A DNA stretch of 39,474 nucleotides from a virus, in the IMG/VR virus record IMGVR_UViG_3300033153_006183, positions 1-39,474 of that record; one strand, given 5' to 3'. Below are positions 2,623 through 39,474 of this stretch, one piece after another. Positions within the stretch are counted from its first letter, which is position 1, and every line of letters starts with the position of its first letter. Below the pieces are notes generated by a model. That model worked only from the letters and a program-made list of their open reading frames with translations. It had not been told where the DNA came from and did not search any database. Made by a program: the position numbers and the translations under genes.

Positions 2623-3120
2623 ATGAACAAGAAACAAGAAATCCAAGACAAAATTACCGAAAACAAAGCTTGTAGAGAAAATTCCAAGCATGCTTTAAGT
2701 TTTTACAAAGAGAGGGTAGATTTTTATGACAAAGATTTAATTGAACTCGAAAAGCAATTAAAAGAGTGCGATGAGTTGAAGTTGGTTGACGGATGGACTA
2801 AAGAGTATAGTTACACACTAGAGCAAAGAACAAAAGATGGTAGATGCTATTCAACATTGGAACTATTAGAAATAGCCACAAAAAACACAACCACGCGTGA
2901 CAGACTTGAAGCGTATAGTAGGGTTATAGATGCTGATTGGAGAGAAAATTGGAACAGCGCCGTTAATCAAAGAAACTACTACATTAATTGTGACCAAGAA
3001 GATGGAGAGTTTATTGTGAAGTTTGATACGAGATTTAAACGATTAGGCACAACATATATGAGCAAAAAAGCCGCCATAAGAATCGTAGATGCGTTGAACA
3101 ACAACGAAATAGAACTTTAA
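2623..3120 (+). CDS. Hypothetical protein ahead of ssb, 165 aa
   Basis: No family recognised. The first 60 residues form a charged helix with coiled-coil character. The rest looks globular, with several aromatic residues (WRENWNSAVNQRNYY near residue 118). I place the start at 2623 because GAGGAG sits 6 bases upstream. An in-frame ATG at 2596 lies inside a predicted stem and has no ribosome-binding site. Ten bases separate its stop from ssb, whose own ribosome-binding site lies in that gap, so a role in DNA replication or repair is plausible. Its leader is unusually structured, implying translational regulation. Confidence 0.7.
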   Translation: MNKKQEIQDKITENKACRENSKHALSFYKERVDFYDKDLIELEKQLKECDELKLVDGWTKEYSYTLEQRTKDGRCYSTLELLEIATKNTTTRDRLEAYSRVIDADWRENWNSAVNQRNYYINCDQEDGEFIVKFDTRFKRLGTTYMSKKAAIRIVDALNNNEIEL

Positions 3121-3130
3121 AGGAGTTAAA

Positions 3131-3673
3131 ATGTACAATAAAATAATTTTAGCAGGAAACCTTACCAGAGATGTAGAGGTTAGATATACTCAAGGTGGGA
3201 GTGCTATAGGAAATACAGCAATCGCAACAACACGAAAGTTTAAATCTCAAACAGGGGAGCAGAAAGAAGAGGTTTTGTTTGTGGACTTAACATTTTTTGG
3301 AAGAACTGCTGAAATTGCTAATCAATATTTACGTAAGGGATCTAAAGTTCTAGTAGATGGACGTTTGAAGTTAGACCAATGGACTGCACAAGATGGACAA
3401 AAGCGAAGCAAGCACTCTGTTACGGTGGAAAACTTGCAAATGCTAGACAGTAAGCCACAAGACGGACAACAGGCACAAGCACCACAAACTCAAAATGCAC
3501 CTACCCACCAAGCCCCACCACAAGGGCAATACACACAACAGCCAGCACCGACAACTCAAAATCGAGAAAATGATTTAAGCCAACAAGCGCAAAACCAACA
3601 GGGCACGATCCCACAGATAGACATAGATACAGATGAAATTCCATTCATGCCTCTTAATTGGAGATTATCATGA
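3131..3673 (+). CDS. ssb: Single-stranded DNA-binding protein
   Basis: An SSB that coats single-stranded phage DNA during replication and recombination. Residues 1-105 form the OB fold and start in the typical way (MYNKIILAGNLTRDVEVRYT), with LFVDLTFFGRTAEIANQYLRKGS and VDGRLKLDQW as further signatures. Residues 110-155 form a Gln/Pro-rich disordered linker. The acidic partner-binding tip (DTDEIPF) is present but followed by eight extra residues (MPLNWRLS), whereas bacterial SSBs normally end at the Phe. Those extra codons hold the ribosome-binding site of the next gene. AAAGGAG precedes the start. Length (180) is normal for the family. Natural partners would be RecT and host replication proteins. 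Confidence 0.95.
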   Translation: MYNKIILAGNLTRDVEVRYTQGGSAIGNTAIATTRKFKSQTGEQKEEVLFVDLTFFGRTAEIANQYLRKGSKVLVDGRLKLDQWTAQDGQKRSKHSVTVENLQMLDSKPQDGQQAQAPQTQNAPTHQAPPQGQYTQQPAPTTQNRENDLSQQAQNQQGTIPQIDIDTDEIPFMPLNWRLS

Positions 3674-33703: not shown

Positions 33704-34087
33704 CTAATCCTTTTCAATTCCCGCTTGTTCCAAAAGCCTGTCCCACTGTTCGCGGATAAAATCAAGCTCTATTCCATTTTCACCCATGATTTTTATCACC
33801 CACTCGATATGACGGCTCAACTCTTTTGATGTTACTTCTATAGTTGATGTTTTACTGTCTCCCATTATAGGATAATCTAAGTTCATAAGTTTAAATATCT
33901 CTTTTAAATCTTCTACATCGCGGTAATCTTCATATTTATAGAATGTTAATGCCCCGCCATGTGAAGTATCTTGCCATTCTCTAAACTGTATTTCGCGTAT
34001 TGGTCTTTTTAAGTCGTCTTTAGCGTTAAGCACTTGCGTGAGAACCACACCAAAATAAAATCTATTAAATTGACTACTGATTTTCAT
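33704..34087 (-). CDS. Hypothetical protein, 127 aa
   Basis: Not recognised. The first 60 residues are beta-like (FNRFYFGVVLTQVLN), the rest helical and acidic (IMGENGIELDFIREQWDRLLEQAG). GGAG stands 7 bases before the ATG, and it overlaps the MBL-fold gene by 4 bases, so it is part of the recombination operon. Confidence 0.65.
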   Translation of the reverse strand: MKISSQFNRFYFGVVLTQVLNAKDDLKRPIREIQFREWQDTSHGGALTFYKYEDYRDVEDLKEIFKLMNLDYPIMGDSKTSTIEVTSKELSRHIEWVIKIMGENGIELDFIREQWDRLLEQAGIEKD

Positions 34088-34749
34088 TTTCTTTCTCCTA
34101 ATAAAGCGAATACCTCTTTCCTGGTACTCTCGCCAATGTGGACAGGAATAAGTTTCCCTATTTTGTTCACTTCACAGAAATCAATACAATCAATGACATC
34201 TAAATGATTTTCTAAAGCCTTGCAAAGATGTGAAAACTCCCCTCTCTCTCTTTTCTCTTCAATAATCTTTAAAGCCGTTTCTTTATGATAGTTGCACTCT
34301 ATGGTTGCCGTGTCATAGTTTAACGCTGTAATGCCTTGCAGTGTGCTTGTATCTGTCATATGAAAGTGTTTATGCTGACCAAATACTAATCTATATCCAC
34401 AATTTTCTACATCATGATATGCCCCTACCCCAGCAAGTTTGAAAGTTCCAAAGTCGTAGAGCTTATTCATCTCTATCACTTCAAAGTTTTCAACTCTCAA
34501 GAGTCGCATAGGTTCACGCATCCACTCACCAAAGATAAACTTGATGTGTTTATGCCTTTCACAAATTCTTCTAATCATAGGCTTATGAAAGTGATCCCCG
34601 TGGATATGGGTTAAAAGAATGTGTGTGACTTTTTCAAAATCAATCTTATCTCGTATCTGTGTCATAGGAATCCCCATATCAACAATCACGCTATCATCAA
34701 ACAAAAAGCAATTACCACTACTCCCTGTTGCTATTATGTCAATCTTCAT
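34084..34749 (-). CDS. Metallo-beta-lactamase-fold hydrolase in recT operon
   Basis: A predicted metal-dependent hydrolase. Counting from the upstream TTG, residues 50-56 are THIHGDH (His51, His53, Asp55, His56; subtract 3 for the start used here). The other ligands appear in AYHDVEN, HMTDTST and PVHIGEST, so the dinuclear site looks complete. It starts SSGNCFLFDDSVIVDMG, like nuclease-type MBL proteins. ATG 34749 is preferred over TTG 34758. It overlaps recT and may take the place of the exonuclease that normally partners a RecT annealing protein. That role is inferred from location. Confidence 0.8.
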   Translation of the reverse strand: MKIDIIATGSSGNCFLFDDSVIVDMGIPMTQIRDKIDFEKVTHILLTHIHGDHFHKPMIRRICERHKHIKFIFGEWMREPMRLLRVENFEVIEMNKLYDFGTFKLAGVGAYHDVENCGYRLVFGQHKHFHMTDTSTLQGITALNYDTATIECNYHKETALKIIEEKRERGEFSHLCKALENHLDVIDCIDFCEVNKIGKLIPVHIGESTRKEVFALLGERK

Positions 34750-35536
34750 ACTTTCCAAGTCCTTTTGGAACTTCTGCTAATGGGTCGTGCTGCTCTACAA
34801 TTTCAGCCGTTGTTGTTTCCTCTTCATTATGATTGTATTGTGCATTATCTGCAAGTTCTAAGTCTTGCATGTTTGGAAACATGTAGGAGATGTGCTTAAT
34901 CACTCTTCTTAACGCTATCTTCTTCGCTCCCTCTGTTGCATAAGACTTATGGATTTGACCTATGCCTCCATTGTACCCACCAGCTCCCATTGCTTTTTGA
35001 TACTCATCTTGTGGGACAACTTCGACAACAGAAGAGATTATCTCGTGAGTCTTTGCACTAATAAGCTTATATTTAGCCCAAGGTGCAACAATATTACCTA
35101 CCATAGGGTTGGCAACAACAAGTGTCTCGTCACCGTTATCCGACTTTAAGATGTAACCTTTTTTAAAACCCTCTCTGATTACCCCAGCTTCTAAAATAAG
35201 GTCATATCCTGCTAGTCGTGCGTTCTGTACGGCTAGTCGTGCAAATGCTTTATAGTCTAAAGGCATTTGTACTTCACCTGCACGCACAAGTACATAAAAA
35301 TCTTTATTTAAAAATGACAATCCCCAATCTGAATATTTTTTCAGAGTTGTTTGTACTTTCTTTTTATTCGCATCAAAATGATTTAATATCTTTTGTGCAT
35401 TTTTTATCGAATTTTGGTTTGTGCCATTGAGTTGTATAGAGAAGTGTTCTCTCAGTTCTGCGATCATGGAAATTGCATCATTACCGTGTGTTGCTTCTAT
35501 TTCTGCTCTCTCTGTCAGTGTTACTTTATTATTCAT
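34739..35536 (-). CDS. recT: RecT-like single-strand annealing protein
   Basis: A recombinase that anneals complementary single strands. The core KKYSDWGLSFLNKDFYVLVRAG, the repeated ARLAVQNARLAGYDLILEAGVIREGF, then WAKYKLISAKTHEII and the basic ATEGAKKIALRRVIKHISYMFP are typical of the RecT family. Length 265 is near that of E. coli RecT (269). The C-terminus is acidic and disordered. It overlaps the DUF1351-like gene upstream and the MBL gene downstream, forming one module. SSB and NinG are encoded in the other arm. Confidence 0.92.
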   Translation of the reverse strand: MNNKVTLTERAEIEATHGNDAISMIAELREHFSIQLNGTNQNSIKNAQKILNHFDANKKKVQTTLKKYSDWGLSFLNKDFYVLVRAGEVQMPLDYKAFARLAVQNARLAGYDLILEAGVIREGFKKGYILKSDNGDETLVVANPMVGNIVAPWAKYKLISAKTHEIISSVVEVVPQDEYQKAMGAGGYNGGIGQIHKSYATEGAKKIALRRVIKHISYMFPNMQDLELADNAQYNHNEEETTTAEIVEQHDPLAEVPKGLGKYED

Positions 35537-36692
35537 AACTCATCCCTCTCTCTTTTAAAAATTTAACCAATGCTTTCATATCATCTACTGTACCGTGCAC
35601 TGTGAAAGTTTCTGATACTATCTCTTTGTCTTCTGTCTTTGATTTTGTATCAATGTCAATAATCATTAACTTAATTTTCTCTGCAACATCTTTGGCTAAA
35701 TTTTGAGTTTCTGCATACTTGATGGATTTAAACAATGCTCTAAGACGATCAAGTTGAGTATTTAACATTTTTTTATCATCACTGATTATAGACAACCCAT
35801 TCTCAATATTGTTTAACTCTGTGATGATCTCATCATCTGCATCATGCAACTCTTCAACTTTCGCTTCTGCTTGTTTCGCTGTTGCTTCTGCTTCAGCTTG
35901 TGCTTCTAGTGCCTTTAGCGTATTGATGTTACCTCTGGCTAACCCTATCTTGTTATCAAGGGTTCTTGTGCATTGCTCGATGATATTTGGGTAAAAGTCT
36001 GGTATTACTTCTTTCATTTTAGTAAGATTGATAATCACTGCGTCTAGCTCATTGATATTGTTGCTCGATACATTCAAGTTTTCGAGATACATTTCAAATT
36101 GTTTCTGCTCTGACGCTCTCAACTCTTCCAGCCTTTGTGCCTCACGAATAGGGGCAACGTGCTTTTCAAACTCTTTTTCAATTTTCTCCAAAGATGCTTT
36201 ACCTAAAACATTTTTATCATTTGGGAGCATCCCTTTGACTTCTCTTTGCTTAGACACGAAACTATCAAACACGGTCATGTCAGGAGTGATATTATTGCTC
36301 TCTTCCTGTAGCCTCTCAAACTCTAGTCTAATAGCTTCATCTGCTATCTCATAAGTAAACTCAAGCATTTCTTTTTTTCGCTCTATAAGCCTGTCTCTCT
36401 GCTCATCAATCTTGGATTCTCTACTCGTAAACTCTTTCACGATCCCAGTCAAAGGTGCGGTGAAAGATTTTCTAAAATCCGTGAACCCGTCATGAGTATC
36501 TTTTATCTCTTTGATTTTGCTTTCAACAACTTCAACGTCCAGGTCGTTCTTGATTGACTCATCCACATAGGCTGTAAGCTCTAATATGTAAGCGTCTACT
36601 GCCTCTGTGTTCGCGACTGGTATTTTGTCTTTAATTTCTATTAAGTCCACTTTTACTATCTCTGTGCTTAGTTGTACTAATTTATTTTTCAT
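35529..36692 (-). CDS. DUF1351-like coiled-coil protein
   Basis: A long helical protein (387 residues) with coiled coils through most of its length. The segment VESKIKEIKDTHDGFTDFRKSFTAPLTGIVKEF is close to what is seen in phage DUF1351 proteins, which lie upstream of recT genes. An Ala/Glu-rich stretch near 265-280 and a C-terminal VHGTVDDMKALVKFLKERGM also fit. It is likely to act with RecT and the MBL protein in recombination; its biochemistry is unknown. Confidence 0.75.
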   Translation of the reverse strand: MKNKLVQLSTEIVKVDLIEIKDKIPVANTEAVDAYILELTAYVDESIKNDLDVEVVESKIKEIKDTHDGFTDFRKSFTAPLTGIVKEFTSRESKIDEQRDRLIERKKEMLEFTYEIADEAIRLEFERLQEESNNITPDMTVFDSFVSKQREVKGMLPNDKNVLGKASLEKIEKEFEKHVAPIREAQRLEELRASEQKQFEMYLENLNVSSNNINELDAVIINLTKMKEVIPDFYPNIIEQCTRTLDNKIGLARGNINTLKALEAQAEAEATAKQAEAKVEELHDADDEIITELNNIENGLSIISDDKKMLNTQLDRLRALFKSIKYAETQNLAKDVAEKIKLMIIDIDTKSKTEDKEIVSETFTVHGTVDDMKALVKFLKERGMSYE

Positions 36693-36693
36693 T

Positions 36694-36921
36694 CTAATTC
36701 TCCATATATGTATTTATTTCTTTATTGTCCACGTTTAGACTCTGATCTGTTGATTTGCCTTGATAGTCTATAGGTTCAGCACCTATAACCTCTTTCATGC
36801 CTTCTACTGCTATGTTATAAGTATCTCGTTCTCCACATAGGTATCCCATCTCAAACGCTTTCTGTTTCTCTTGTGTTGTTAAGCCGAGGGCTAGGGCTTG
36901 ATCTTGTAATTTTTTGGTCAT
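36694..36921 (-). CDS. Hypothetical protein, 75 aa
   Basis: Unknown function. N-terminal helix with LGLTTQEKQKAFEMGYLCGE, acidic C-terminus. AAGGA lies 6 bases before the ATG. It is the second gene of the minus early cluster, one base from the DUF1351-like gene. Confidence 0.6.
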   Translation of the reverse strand: MTKKLQDQALALGLTTQEKQKAFEMGYLCGERDTYNIAVEGMKEVIGAEPIDYQGKSTDQSLNVDNKEINTYMEN

Positions 36922-36930
36922 TTTGTGTCC

Positions 36931-37092
36931 TTATCTATCAGAAGCTATCATTCTAGCTATCTTCTTTTTACTAAAAGCAAATCTCTCATCGGGGAAGTCT
37001 GTCATTAAAGTTTTAATGTTCTGATAGCCTGCAATCCGGATAACTCTCTTCTTTTTCATTCTACATAACTCAGCATATGAATATTCTCTCAT
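36931..37092 (-). CDS. First gene of the minus arm, basic 53-aa protein
   Basis: A short basic protein: YSYAELCRMKKKRVIRIAGY and a C-terminal FSKKKIARMIASDR. This could be a DNA-binding helix pair but no family is recognised. I place the start at ATG 37092, with AAGGA 7 bases upstream. A TTG at 37164 would run through the 22-bp inverted repeat and has no ribosome-binding site. It is the first gene after the structured RNA region, so it is an early regulator candidate. Confidence 0.55.
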   Translation of the reverse strand: MREYSYAELCRMKKKRVIRIAGYQNIKTLMTDFPDERFAFSKKKIARMIASDR

Positions 37093-37122
37093 ATCTATTT
37101 CCTTTTGTTTTTGTAGCGAATA

Positions 37123-37210
37123 AACGCTCTCATAGGGCATACAAGGTAGGGGGGGTCTAATCAATAAAGGAGGAGAATTAATTAGAATTTGTATGCCCTA
37201 TGAGAGCGTT
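37123..37210. repeat. Perfect 22-bp inverted repeat
   Basis: Arms 37123-37144 and 37189-37210 are perfectly complementary over 22 bp, around a 44-base purine-rich loop. It lies between the structured RNA region and the first minus-arm gene. As RNA it would be a very stable hairpin; as DNA it could bind a dimeric protein. No T-run follows on either strand, so it is not a normal terminator. Confidence 0.85.
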
Positions 37211-37217
37211 AAAGTTC

Positions 37218-37359
37218 TTTACGAGATGATTAATTAGGCACGATTTGTACTAATTGAGTTTCGGACTTTCAACTAAACTATATTTCCTCTATCAATCTTC
37301 TAAATACGGCTATCGCACAATGCCAAACATATTTAGTTATGCTTTAATCACCTCGTAAA
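37218..37359 (-). ncRNA. Structured RNA domain 1 (minus strand)
   Basis: A closing helix of 16 bp joins 37218-37233 and 37344-37359. The single mismatch is A-C on the plus strand but G-U on the minus strand. Inside are two hairpins: a CTAAATA/TATTTAG stem (minus-strand sense) and a 7-bp stem at 37251-37257/37269-37275, again with a G-U only on the minus strand. No credible gene overlaps. No named RNA family is recognised. Confidence 0.5.
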
Positions 37360-37373
37360 AAACTCATGTTGTA

Positions 37374-37523
37374 AGCTCTTATAGGTGGTGTAGTTATGCC
37401 CGAACAAGAATCATTTGCAACTAATTCAAGCTCACTTTTTTAATACTTCTTTTTGAGTATCTTAGGATAGTTACCAAAGGGCACATACCAACCTACATAA
37501 TTACTACTACACCTATAAAAGCT
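37374..37523 (-). ncRNA. Structured RNA domain 2 (minus strand)
   Basis: A 14-bp closing helix joins 37374-37387 and 37510-37523, with one C-A on the plus strand that becomes G-U on the minus strand. An internal 6-bp hairpin (37442-37447/37456-37461) also has a pair that is G-U only on the minus strand. The domain follows the same plan as domain 1. Confidence 0.5.
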
Positions 37524-37530
37524 CTTTGGG

Positions 37531-37624
37531 TGAAGTGGTCAAGTTATCAACTCTGGCGATTAACCCAGTCTCAGGAGGAATTGAACCTCTCAATGCCCTT
37601 GGTTTAGCATCGACAACCACTTCA
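37531..37624 (-). ncRNA. Structured RNA domain 3, tRNA-like parts
   Basis: A perfect 9-bp helix closes 94 bases (37531-37539/37616-37624). On the minus strand it contains GGTTCAATTCC, the typical T-arm consensus, and ATGCTAA, like a tRNA-Ser(GCT) anticodon loop. The acceptor that should follow the T-arm (TGAGACT) has no partner, so it is not a normal tRNA gene. The 12-base TAAAAAACTCAT (plus strand) flanks both this domain and domain 1. Confidence 0.45.
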
Positions 37625-37679
37625 TAAAAAACTCATTCTGATAAGTTAAATATCAAGAGTCAAACTTAACTCTAAAAGC

Positions 37680-37709
37680 ATTGTATCACAAAAAATAAAT
37701 GAATGTCAA
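37680..37709 (-). promoter_or_regulatory. Early minus-strand promoter
   Basis: On the minus strand: TTGACA (37704-37709), an 18-base spacer and TGA-TACAAT (-10 at 37680-37685), a near-consensus sigma-70 promoter with an extended -10. Start is expected near 37673, so the first product is the three-domain RNA, then the recombination genes. An operator-like repeat lies in the spacer. Confidence 0.8.
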
Positions 37710-37767
37710 GAGTTTTATGTAAATAAATGTAATCTTTTTACAATTCGTTGACAATATTACATTTATT
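37694..37767. promoter_or_regulatory. Operator-like repeats between divergent promoters
   Basis: Three copies of an AATAAATG(T/A)A motif: 37694-37706 (minus promoter spacer and -35 edge), 37722-37733 (between the promoters) and, inverted, 37756-37767 (plus promoter spacer). The last two form a 12-bp inverted repeat with a 22-base gap. The layout recalls the lambda right operator. The binding protein is not known; the HTH protein at 37806 is the nearest candidate. Confidence 0.6.
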
Positions 37768-37777
37768 GTGATATAAT
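37748..37777 (+). promoter_or_regulatory. Early plus-strand promoter
   Basis: TTGACA (37748-37753), an 18-base spacer and TGA-TATAAT (-10 at 37772-37777) form a consensus extended -10 promoter. Start is expected near 37784, about 22 bases before the GIY-YIG/HTH start. Its spacer is similar to that of the opposing promoter (both contain CATTTATT and end TGTGA), as if one arose by inverted duplication. Confidence 0.85.
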
Positions 37778-37805
37778 GTGTTTATCTTAAAATAAAGGAA
37801 AGAAA

Positions 37806-38249
37806 TTGAAAAAGTTTATTTACAAGCTTTATAATAGTAATAATGATTTGCTTTATGTTGGATGCACGTCCAATATCGAGGCAAGGATAAACCATCACAA
37901 AAGTAATCAAAAATGGGGTGAGGGGATAGCGGTGGTTAGATATAGAGAAACTATAGGCAATCCTATTATAGATGAAGCAGAAGTTATTAAGTCGTGCTAT
38001 CCTCTTTATAATATCCAACACAGCAATAGAGACACTTTAAATGAAGTTGATACTACACTTTTTATTGAGTGGAAAGCTAAAAAAGGTGTAACAGATACAG
38101 CGATAGCAAGACGATTTAAGATGCCAATTAGAACTTTGGCAAATTGGAAAAAAGAGAAGCCTAGTAATTGGAGACGTAAACTTTATATATTCATGAAAGA
38201 GAAGCTGGAGAGAGAAGATCATGAAGAGAAAAGAGAGGAGCATTTTTAA
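37806..38249 (+). CDS. GIY-YIG nuclease domain fused to helix-turn-helix, 147 aa
   Basis: Residues 1-72 form a compact GIY-YIG domain: FIYKLYN and LLYVGCT give Tyr6 and Tyr17, then Arg27, Glu59 and Asn69 (PLYNIQ), so the expected active-site set is complete. Residues about 85-135 (VTDTAIARRFKMPIRTLANWKKEK) look like a helix-turn-helix DNA-binding unit. TTG start with AAAGGA 6 bases upstream. It is the first gene of the plus arm, exactly where a cro-type regulator would sit. It may be a nuclease that also represses its own promoter, as known for the homing enzyme I-TevI, or an anti-host nuclease. Confidence 0.8.
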   Translation: MKKFIYKLYNSNNDLLYVGCTSNIEARINHHKSNQKWGEGIAVVRYRETIGNPIIDEAEVIKSCYPLYNIQHSNRDTLNEVDTTLFIEWKAKKGVTDTAIARRFKMPIRTLANWKKEKPSNWRRKLYIFMKEKLEREDHEEKREEHF

Positions 38250-38341: not shown

Positions 38342-38554
38342 ATGAAAATAGAAAACCAAAGAGTAAAAATCCCAACAAACTATCTCGACCCCGTAACATA
38401 CATACCGCCACACGTGCCAAATCGAAACGCAGGACATAGCGATTGTGAAAAAGGGGTGATAATAAGCCTCTACGGAGAAAATACGGTCAAGGTATTATTT
38501 TGCAAAAATAGAACAGTTCAAAGTGTAAATGCAGAAAATCTTGTATTTGGATAG
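38342..38554 (+). CDS. Hypothetical protein, 70 aa
   Basis: No family recognised. Beta-rich small protein; the C-terminal half (KGVIISLYGENTVKVLFCKNRTVQSVNAENLVFG) has the look of a small barrel or SH3-like fold of the kind found in phage early proteins. AAAGGA precedes the ATG as part of the 37-bp repeat. Confidence 0.6.
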   Translation: MKIENQRVKIPTNYLDPVTYIPPHVPNRNAGHSDCEKGVIISLYGENTVKVLFCKNRTVQSVNAENLVFG

Positions 38555-38779: not shown

Positions 38780-39063
38780 ACAGAGAACACGCAAGAGCAG
38801 AAAAAAACAAACAACTAGATGCAGTTATTGAAAAATCAGGAAAATTAGCGGACTGGGCTATTGAGGCAGAACAAAAATGGGCATGGAATAGATATGCGGA
38901 TAAATTAGAAAAAATATTAGATGATTTTGAGTCAAGAACCTGTGAGAATTGCAAATACTTCGATAATGGCTTATGTGATGAGGTTACATATTCCGATCAC
39001 GGAACACCATTTCTCGTAGTTGATAAAAACTTTGGATGTAATTTGTTTGAACCTAAAGAATAA
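38776..39063 (+). CDS. Cys-rich C-terminal domain protein, 95 aa
   Basis: Residues 1-55 are a charged helix; residues 50-95 carry ESRTCENCKYFDNGLCDEV ... VVDKNFGCNLFE. The same Cys pattern ends the protein at 31949-32290 on the other strand. Four Cys would bind one zinc. It is the last gene before the non-coding segment and is followed by a terminator-like hairpin. Confidence 0.65.
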   Translation: MNREHARAEKNKQLDAVIEKSGKLADWAIEAEQKWAWNRYADKLEKILDDFESRTCENCKYFDNGLCDEVTYSDHGTPFLVVDKNFGCNLFEPKE

Positions 39064-39077
39064 ACCACTACAATTAC

Positions 39078-39119
39078 AAAGCCCCAATCTTTCGGGTGGT
39101 TTGGCTTTATGTTCTTTTT
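39078..39119 (+). terminator. Terminator-like hairpin after the regulator cluster
   Basis: AAAGCC (39078-39083) pairs with GGCTTT (39103-39108) with further partial pairing inside, followed by a T-rich stretch ending TTCTTTTT. Its right arm overlaps the -35 of the next promoter, so termination and re-initiation are packed together. Confidence 0.5.
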
Positions 39120-39129
39120 ATGGTATAAT
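39101..39129 (+). promoter_or_regulatory. Strong plus-strand promoter ahead of non-coding region
   Basis: TTGGCT (39101-39106), a 17-base spacer and TATAAT (39124-39129) with an upstream TGG extension. No gene start follows for over 450 bases, so its first product is a long leader or an independent RNA. Confidence 0.7.
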
Positions 39130-39135
39130 ATTGAA

Positions 39136-39474
39136 TAAGTATCTTTTAACCAGTATGCAAACTGTCACCAATTTTCGGATTGGTTAAAGGATATAACAGA
39201 AGATAGTTTGCATACTCTTCTTTTATTAACTATCCCCCTTTACACATATCATTGTTTGGTAACGAGAGTATGAGACTCCTTTAAATAATCTCAGAGTTTG
39301 GAGAGCGTCCAAACGGAAATCTAAACGTTAAGCAGAAAATAGAGTGTCATAGCACGCATTAAGCGTACCGATGCCCGGAGAACACAAGCAGTTAAGAGTT
39401 GACCTTAATGGTCGAGGTAGATACAAGGCTCCCATCTATCTAAGTTATTTCTCTTTTCTTATTTATAATAGCTA
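39136..39474 (+). ncRNA. Structured leader or small RNA
   Basis: No credible gene. Helices include a 15-bp stem 39152-39166/39202-39216 (one G-U on this strand) with a nested 6-bp hairpin 39167-39184. An alternative pairing TTTAACCA (39145-39152) with TGGTTAAA (39181-39188) competes with both. Later come GTTTGGA/TCCAAAC (7 bp), ACGC/GCGT and GACC/GGTC hairpins. It probably continues past the window end into 1-119. No known RNA family recognised by eye. Confidence 0.5.

Follow-up and report, generated by a model that had tools for sequence, protein, structure and literature searches.

A structured RNA leader predicted ahead of the leftward early operon of a virus genome

The segment from about position 37673 to 37093 on the minus strand of the virus genome IMGVR_UViG_3300033153_006183 very probably forms the structured 5′ leader, about 580 nt in length, of a leftward early operon, and its structure appears to be under selection. 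The record, analysed over its full 39,474 bases (hereafter the window), encodes a P22-type portal protein. Sequence analysis supports minus-strand structure under selection, the position of this structure ahead of the operon, the absence of a terminator and the retention of the same slot in four phages. From these features we infer transcription of the leader and each step of its function. Most likely it serves in the control of early mRNA synthesis and reading; tentatively, we propose that it might act in cis on both elongation and translation, in the style of the lambda N or rRNA leaders.

A preliminary description of this DNA had placed three closed folds on the minus strand, with a near-consensus promoter firing into them at about 37673. 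Both observations were borne out. The promoter, TTGACA-18-TACAAT at 37680–37709 (minus strand), agrees with the consensus at 11 of 12 positions and has a predicted start near 37673, and the closing helices are present at the coordinates described. Domain 1 (37213–37364, minus strand) is closed by pairing of 37213–37233 with 37344–37364, a helix of 21 bp including two G-U pairs and longer than the 9–16 bp first given for the closing helices. Domain 2 (37374–37523, minus strand) is closed over 24 nt by 37374–37397 and 37500–37523, with 20 Watson-Crick pairs (83%), one G-U pair and three mismatches. Domain 3 (37531–37624, minus strand) is closed by UGAAGUGGUU and GACCACUUCA, 9 bp plus two G-U pairs, and a homologous helix occurs in the related contig L005. 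The 5′ arm of domain 1 is an 86% copy of the arm of domain 3 over 22 nt. Two elements had been overlooked, a small promoter-proximal hairpin and a 22-bp hairpin that extends the structure past 37218. On the minus strand, ACCAAGGGCA in domain 3 (37594–37611) and UGCCCUUUGGU in domain 2 (37466–37483) are complementary save for one bulge, so that a contact between the two domains via AAGGGCA/UGCCCUU is possible from the sequence.

Folding against shuffled sequences gave z = −4.65 for the minus strand and −2.07 for the plus strand when the originally described span was taken alone. For the minus strand of 37090–37673 z reached −11.6, with no shuffle as good, and the lowest z of the genome (−6.87, among 524 scan windows covering both strands) fell at 37051–37330 on the minus strand. 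Low values were also found on the plus strand at 37501–37930; this stretch contains the inverted-repeat divergent promoters, which likely account for the signal at the level of DNA. The second of these promoters, a perfect TTGACA-18-TATAAT at 37748–37777 on the plus strand, reads to a GIY-YIG ORF at 37806–38249. One promoter is an inverted copy of the other, with 37-nt arms that are 76% complementary, as if the two shared one common operator sequence, TGTGATAYAATG.

Elsewhere in the window, 751–1030 gave the third lowest z of the scan (−5.67), and a perfect 14-bp inverted repeat (867–880/951–964) lies within a DNA methyltransferase ORF. At the other end of the record, a nested long inverted repeat with arms of 25 and 15 nt (39140–39216, plus strand) is followed by hairpin-rich, non-coding sequence (39220–39474) without an Rfam match. 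With z values of −3.3 for 39001–39280 and −1.6 for 39130–39474, this end may hold another structured RNA, on the plus strand. Gene order common to L005 runs on across the record ends, from 38582 to 339, an indication that the genome is circularly permuted or nearly complete.

The comparison with relatives comprises four phages, two of which come from one metagenome. The latter, the viral contigs L004 and L005, were found via the 53-aa protein encoded directly behind the leader. L038 shares proteins of 387 aa (33% identical) and 127 aa (40%) and also carries a RecT-family gene. Contigs L007–L010 were left out, as they have only a 70-aa ORF in common with the window. Relatives of this ORF (38342–38554, plus strand) occur on five viral contigs; in the protein comparison, four of these showed no further relationship.

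Upstream of the first gene, the sequences of L004 and L005 can be aligned just near the start codon, yet each contains a folded leader. The slot is structured in all three relatives (z = −5.65, −2.29 and −7.0, the last for L038) with almost unrelated sequences, and their leaders ranked 1 of 199, 3 of 197 and 1 of 74 (for L038 also 4 of 74) in scans of the leader strand. The number of domains varies, and a long terminal hairpin is present in all four phages. In L004, a hairpin AUCGGA...UCCGAU is followed by GUUCUUUGAG and directly by the terminal hairpin. The L005 leader starts with AUCGAAA...UUUCGAU and GUUCUUUGAG, continues with domains closed by UGAAGUGGUG/CACCACUUCA and then AAGUAGCAAA/UUUGCUACUU, and ends in its terminal hairpin. 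In L038, the operon promoter TTGACA-17-TATTAT precedes a hairpin and UUUCUUUAAC, after which come domains with long helices and a long terminal hairpin of 27 nt that is 85% complementary; for L004 and L005 only weak promoter matches or none were found in the leader direction. L038 also has strong hairpins between its early genes 1 and 2 (3092–3266), and one of these, ATCGAAGTGA..TCACTTCATTTCGAT, recalls the hairpin that opens the L005 leader. Broken helices without covariation in relatives had been named in the preliminary description as grounds for abandoning the RNA; applied to the few relatives that were found, this check did not refute the RNA.

The non-Watson-Crick pairs of the helices are polarized between the strands. 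Four such pairs (37226/37351, 37378/37519, 37253/37273 and 37442/37461) had been reported to read A-C on the plus strand and G-U on the minus strand, which holds for all four. Across the four leaders, helices were called with equal penalties for A-C and G-T mismatches, so that neither strand was favoured. Under the stricter length limit, the wobbles in the transcript sense then comprised 17 G-U and one A-C (p 1.4e-4), against a split of about 52 to 48 in shuffles. Looser limits gave 19 to 3 (p 8e-4) and 21 to 8 (p 0.02).

Compensatory changes were seen in a 10-bp helix common to three domains: domains 1 and 3 of the window and, in L005, the one next after the boxA-like site. All 30 cells of this comparison are canonical, and four of the ten pairs (1, 4, 8 and 10) changed on both sides (C-G/U-A, G-C/A-U, A-U/G-C and U-G/G-C). 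Random arms with an equal number of changes kept all ten pairs in 258 of 200,000 trials; the comparison is small and presumes the domains to be copies of one another, as their matching sequence, order and position support.

The terminal hairpin (37123–37210, minus strand) has a perfect 22-bp stem, 37123–37144/37189–37210, and its loop holds an inner hairpin and CUCCUCCUUU, a complement of the downstream Shine-Dalgarno sequence. The latter was read from the sequence as AAAGGA at 37100–37105 (minus strand; ACAAAGGAAAUAGAUAUG in L004 and L005) and starts 17 nt past the end of the folds. The complementary loop segment is UCCUUU in the window and UGACUCCUU in L038. These features could mean that the leader is mainly an element of translation or stability, its helices protecting the message or serving as RNase III substrates and its loop masking the Shine-Dalgarno sequence, with RNA polymerase unaffected. 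The occurrence of the terminal hairpin in all four phages fits this view, as does the loop being the best Shine-Dalgarno complement in three of them (the window, L004 and L038; another site is better in L005). RNase III cuts stems of 21–22 bp, the size found here. The pairing itself comprises only 6 bp in the window and L005, but 7 bp in L004 and 9 bp in L038, and the last two were found without guidance. It was reached by 86 of 100 shuffles for the window, 12 of 100 for L004 and 4 of 100 for L038, and is near notable in the last two only. Since a role in translation or stability would also leave the extra domains and the promoter-proximal hairpin unexplained, we regard it as a rather unlikely account of the whole leader, and favour one that would include elongation.

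The first gene of the operon (36931–37092, minus strand, ATG at 37092–37090) encodes a small, basic protein of 53 aa (pI 10.2) that is 74–75% identical in L004 and L005. It belongs to no Pfam or PHROG family, and with a pLDDT of 61.5 its structure model was too poor for a fold search. The rest of the operon (34084–36921, minus strand) comprises a 75-aa ORF, a 387-aa ORF, RecT and a metallo-beta-lactamase-fold protein. No terminator was found between the leader promoter and the ORF at 36931–37092, and we therefore interpret folds that run terminator-free straight into a conserved ORF as a 5′ leader and not as a stand-alone ncRNA. Searches of bacterial genomes with the first gene and the portal gave no match, and searches of named phages and plasmids found nothing homologous to either the leader or the operon.

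The "possible new phage ncRNA" of the preliminary description accordingly stands as a minus-strand structured RNA without an Rfam match, and falls as a separate RNA of the ROOL or GOLLD type. The covariance-model search proposed there was run over the whole window, where no hit to an Rfam family reached gathering score; at E up to 10, the ROOL and GOLLD models gave no match within 37000–37900. For the leaders of the window, L005 and L038, searches at E up to 10 returned nothing at gathering score; weak matches to miRNA families were far below the cut-offs and were rejected. ROOL and GOLLD were likewise rejected, their models being unmatched and a tRNA island absent, as were known riboswitches and other Rfam cis-regulatory families (no match above gathering score) and tmRNA, represented by an 11-base scrap with E 2.6 and 6.7 bits, where the cut-off is 47. 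The tRNA T-arm earlier seen in domain 3 is a simple GAGG-UUCAAUU-CCUC hairpin; ARAGORN found no tRNA there or anywhere in the window. A large stand-alone RNA acting in trans, with the downstream gene served by read-through, would agree with the size of about 550, the elaborate folds, the strong promoter, the lack of an Rfam match and the possible contact of domains 2 and 3. Against it stand the missing terminator, the conserved Shine-Dalgarno context of the first gene directly behind, the unmatched ROOL and GOLLD models and a number of domains that varies among relatives, unlike a shared trans-acting fold. We hold such an RNA to be distinctly unlikely and retain the cis-acting leader.

At its promoter-proximal end, the leader carries the hairpin UGAUA-UUUAACU-UAUCA (37639–37655, minus strand), read from the sequence and weak, with five A-U-rich pairs. 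It occupies the place of stronger hairpins in the relatives, AUCGRA...UYCGAU in L004 and L005 and GCAAAUGU...ACAUUUGC in L038. Next to it lies a boxA-like segment, GUUUUUUAUGA (37622–37632, minus strand), also given as GUUUUUUAUG, which matches 9 of 11 positions of the boxA consensus GYUCUUUAANA (PMC5725501) and is not significant alone. Its counterparts at the equivalent place are GUUCUUUGAG in L004 and L005 and UUUCUUUAAC in L038. The best boxA-like site lies at leader base 42, 55, 53 and 42 in the four phages, right 3′ of the first hairpin. It scores 9 of 11 in each leader, single matches that are not significant, against a consensus that is maybe not the host's own. In the window C4 is replaced by U, and 194 of 300 shuffles do as well. 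Searching with the DNA pattern of the hairpin-boxA element of L004 and L005 recovered it in these two contigs only; the remaining matches look like chance, in coding-type sequence of unrelated contigs.

The first hairpin with the U-rich stretch behind it has a terminator-like score in L004 and L038, which makes a transcription attenuator, a weak terminator switched by the later folds, a rival to be weighed. The hairpins of the window and L005 gave no terminator score, however, the stem in the window consists of just five A-U-rich pairs, and the U run stands apart from it; we therefore consider attenuation very unlikely. Finally, a DNA element such as a replication origin, packaging site or cruciform would suit a perfect, A+T-rich 22-bp inverted repeat between divergent promoters and early genes, but is hardly tenable given the 17 to 1 wobble polarity in favour of the transcript strand, the strand bias of the fold energy and the orientation of the promoter.

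For the cis-acting leader, the following course of events can be proposed. Transcription would begin near 37673 on the minus strand, and the nascent RNA would fold in order into the small hairpin, the U-rich boxA-like segment, three independent long-helix domains and the 22-bp hairpin. Promoter-proximal hairpin and boxA-like segment may alter RNA polymerase or bring in Nus factors, while the long helices would make the leader compact and supply RNase III sites. The terminal hairpin, whose loop is a complement of the Shine-Dalgarno sequence, would adjust how strongly the first gene is translated, and the message would continue without a terminator to the Shine-Dalgarno sequence of the small basic protein and on into the recombination genes. 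An excess of intrinsic terminators was not found in the early operons, which leaves a need for antitermination unsupported. The first protein of L038 is acidic and unrelated to the 53-aa protein, so that an N-like function would not hold for the first protein in general.

Among known systems, ROOL and GOLLD resemble the leader in being phage-encoded, large and elaborately folded, and are often found near tRNA islands (PMC12286853); the leader has neither a covariance-model match to them nor a tRNA island, and leads directly into an operon. The put RNA of HK022 is likewise a structured RNA at the start of an early operon. It measures about 70 nt and has two stem-loops (PMC9378689), as opposed to about 580 nt and at least five in the present leader, a size and number of domains that do not fit a put RNA. 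The put stem-loops bind RNA polymerase. Bacterial rRNA leaders, which form a leader-trailer helix, contain boxB, boxA and boxC in this order after the promoter, and boxC is overlapped by the RNase III site of a long helix (PMC10250234). They share with the present leader a hairpin, a boxA-like segment and a long helix right after a strong promoter; here, however, protein genes follow and the boxA match is not strict. One could go further and see a class of leaders that imitate the start of the rRNA transcript and capture the host machinery of rRNA antitermination and processing. The hairpin, the boxA-like site, the large domains and the last-loop CCUCCUUU, which is like the 3′ end of 16S rRNA, would then all belong to the mimicry, with helix domains freely gained and lost between phages. 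We think this very doubtful.

The nutL site of lambda is situated about 200 bp upstream of N with a highly structured stretch between, and Nus factors together with N repress N translation (PMC5725501); by the title of a work cited there, RNase III modulates this repression (PMC5725501). The window differs from the lambda pL/N leader in a degenerate boxA, in a hairpin that stands before the boxA-like site instead of after it, in a length two to three times greater and in the absence of any sequence relation, and no N homologue was found. One feature of a lambda-type nut site, a boxB hairpin just 3′ of boxA, was not found; all four phages have a small hairpin 5′ of the boxA-like segment instead. 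Both leaders nevertheless combine an early promoter, a promoter-proximal hairpin, a boxA-like segment and a long structured stretch, followed by a small basic first gene of a recombination operon.

To our knowledge, very few phages have a large structured early-operon leader that has been described in detail. Cis-acting leaders are already known from phage early operons; for the present one, no homology to any of the families searched was detected. Its structure has been kept, with almost complete turnover of sequence, a variable number of domains and no Rfam family. Such turnover is expected of an RNA that needs just helices at the right places, and a sequence search would miss an RNA of this sort. 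Should the leader alter RNA polymerase, RNA-directed antitermination would gain an example from outside the lambdoid phages.
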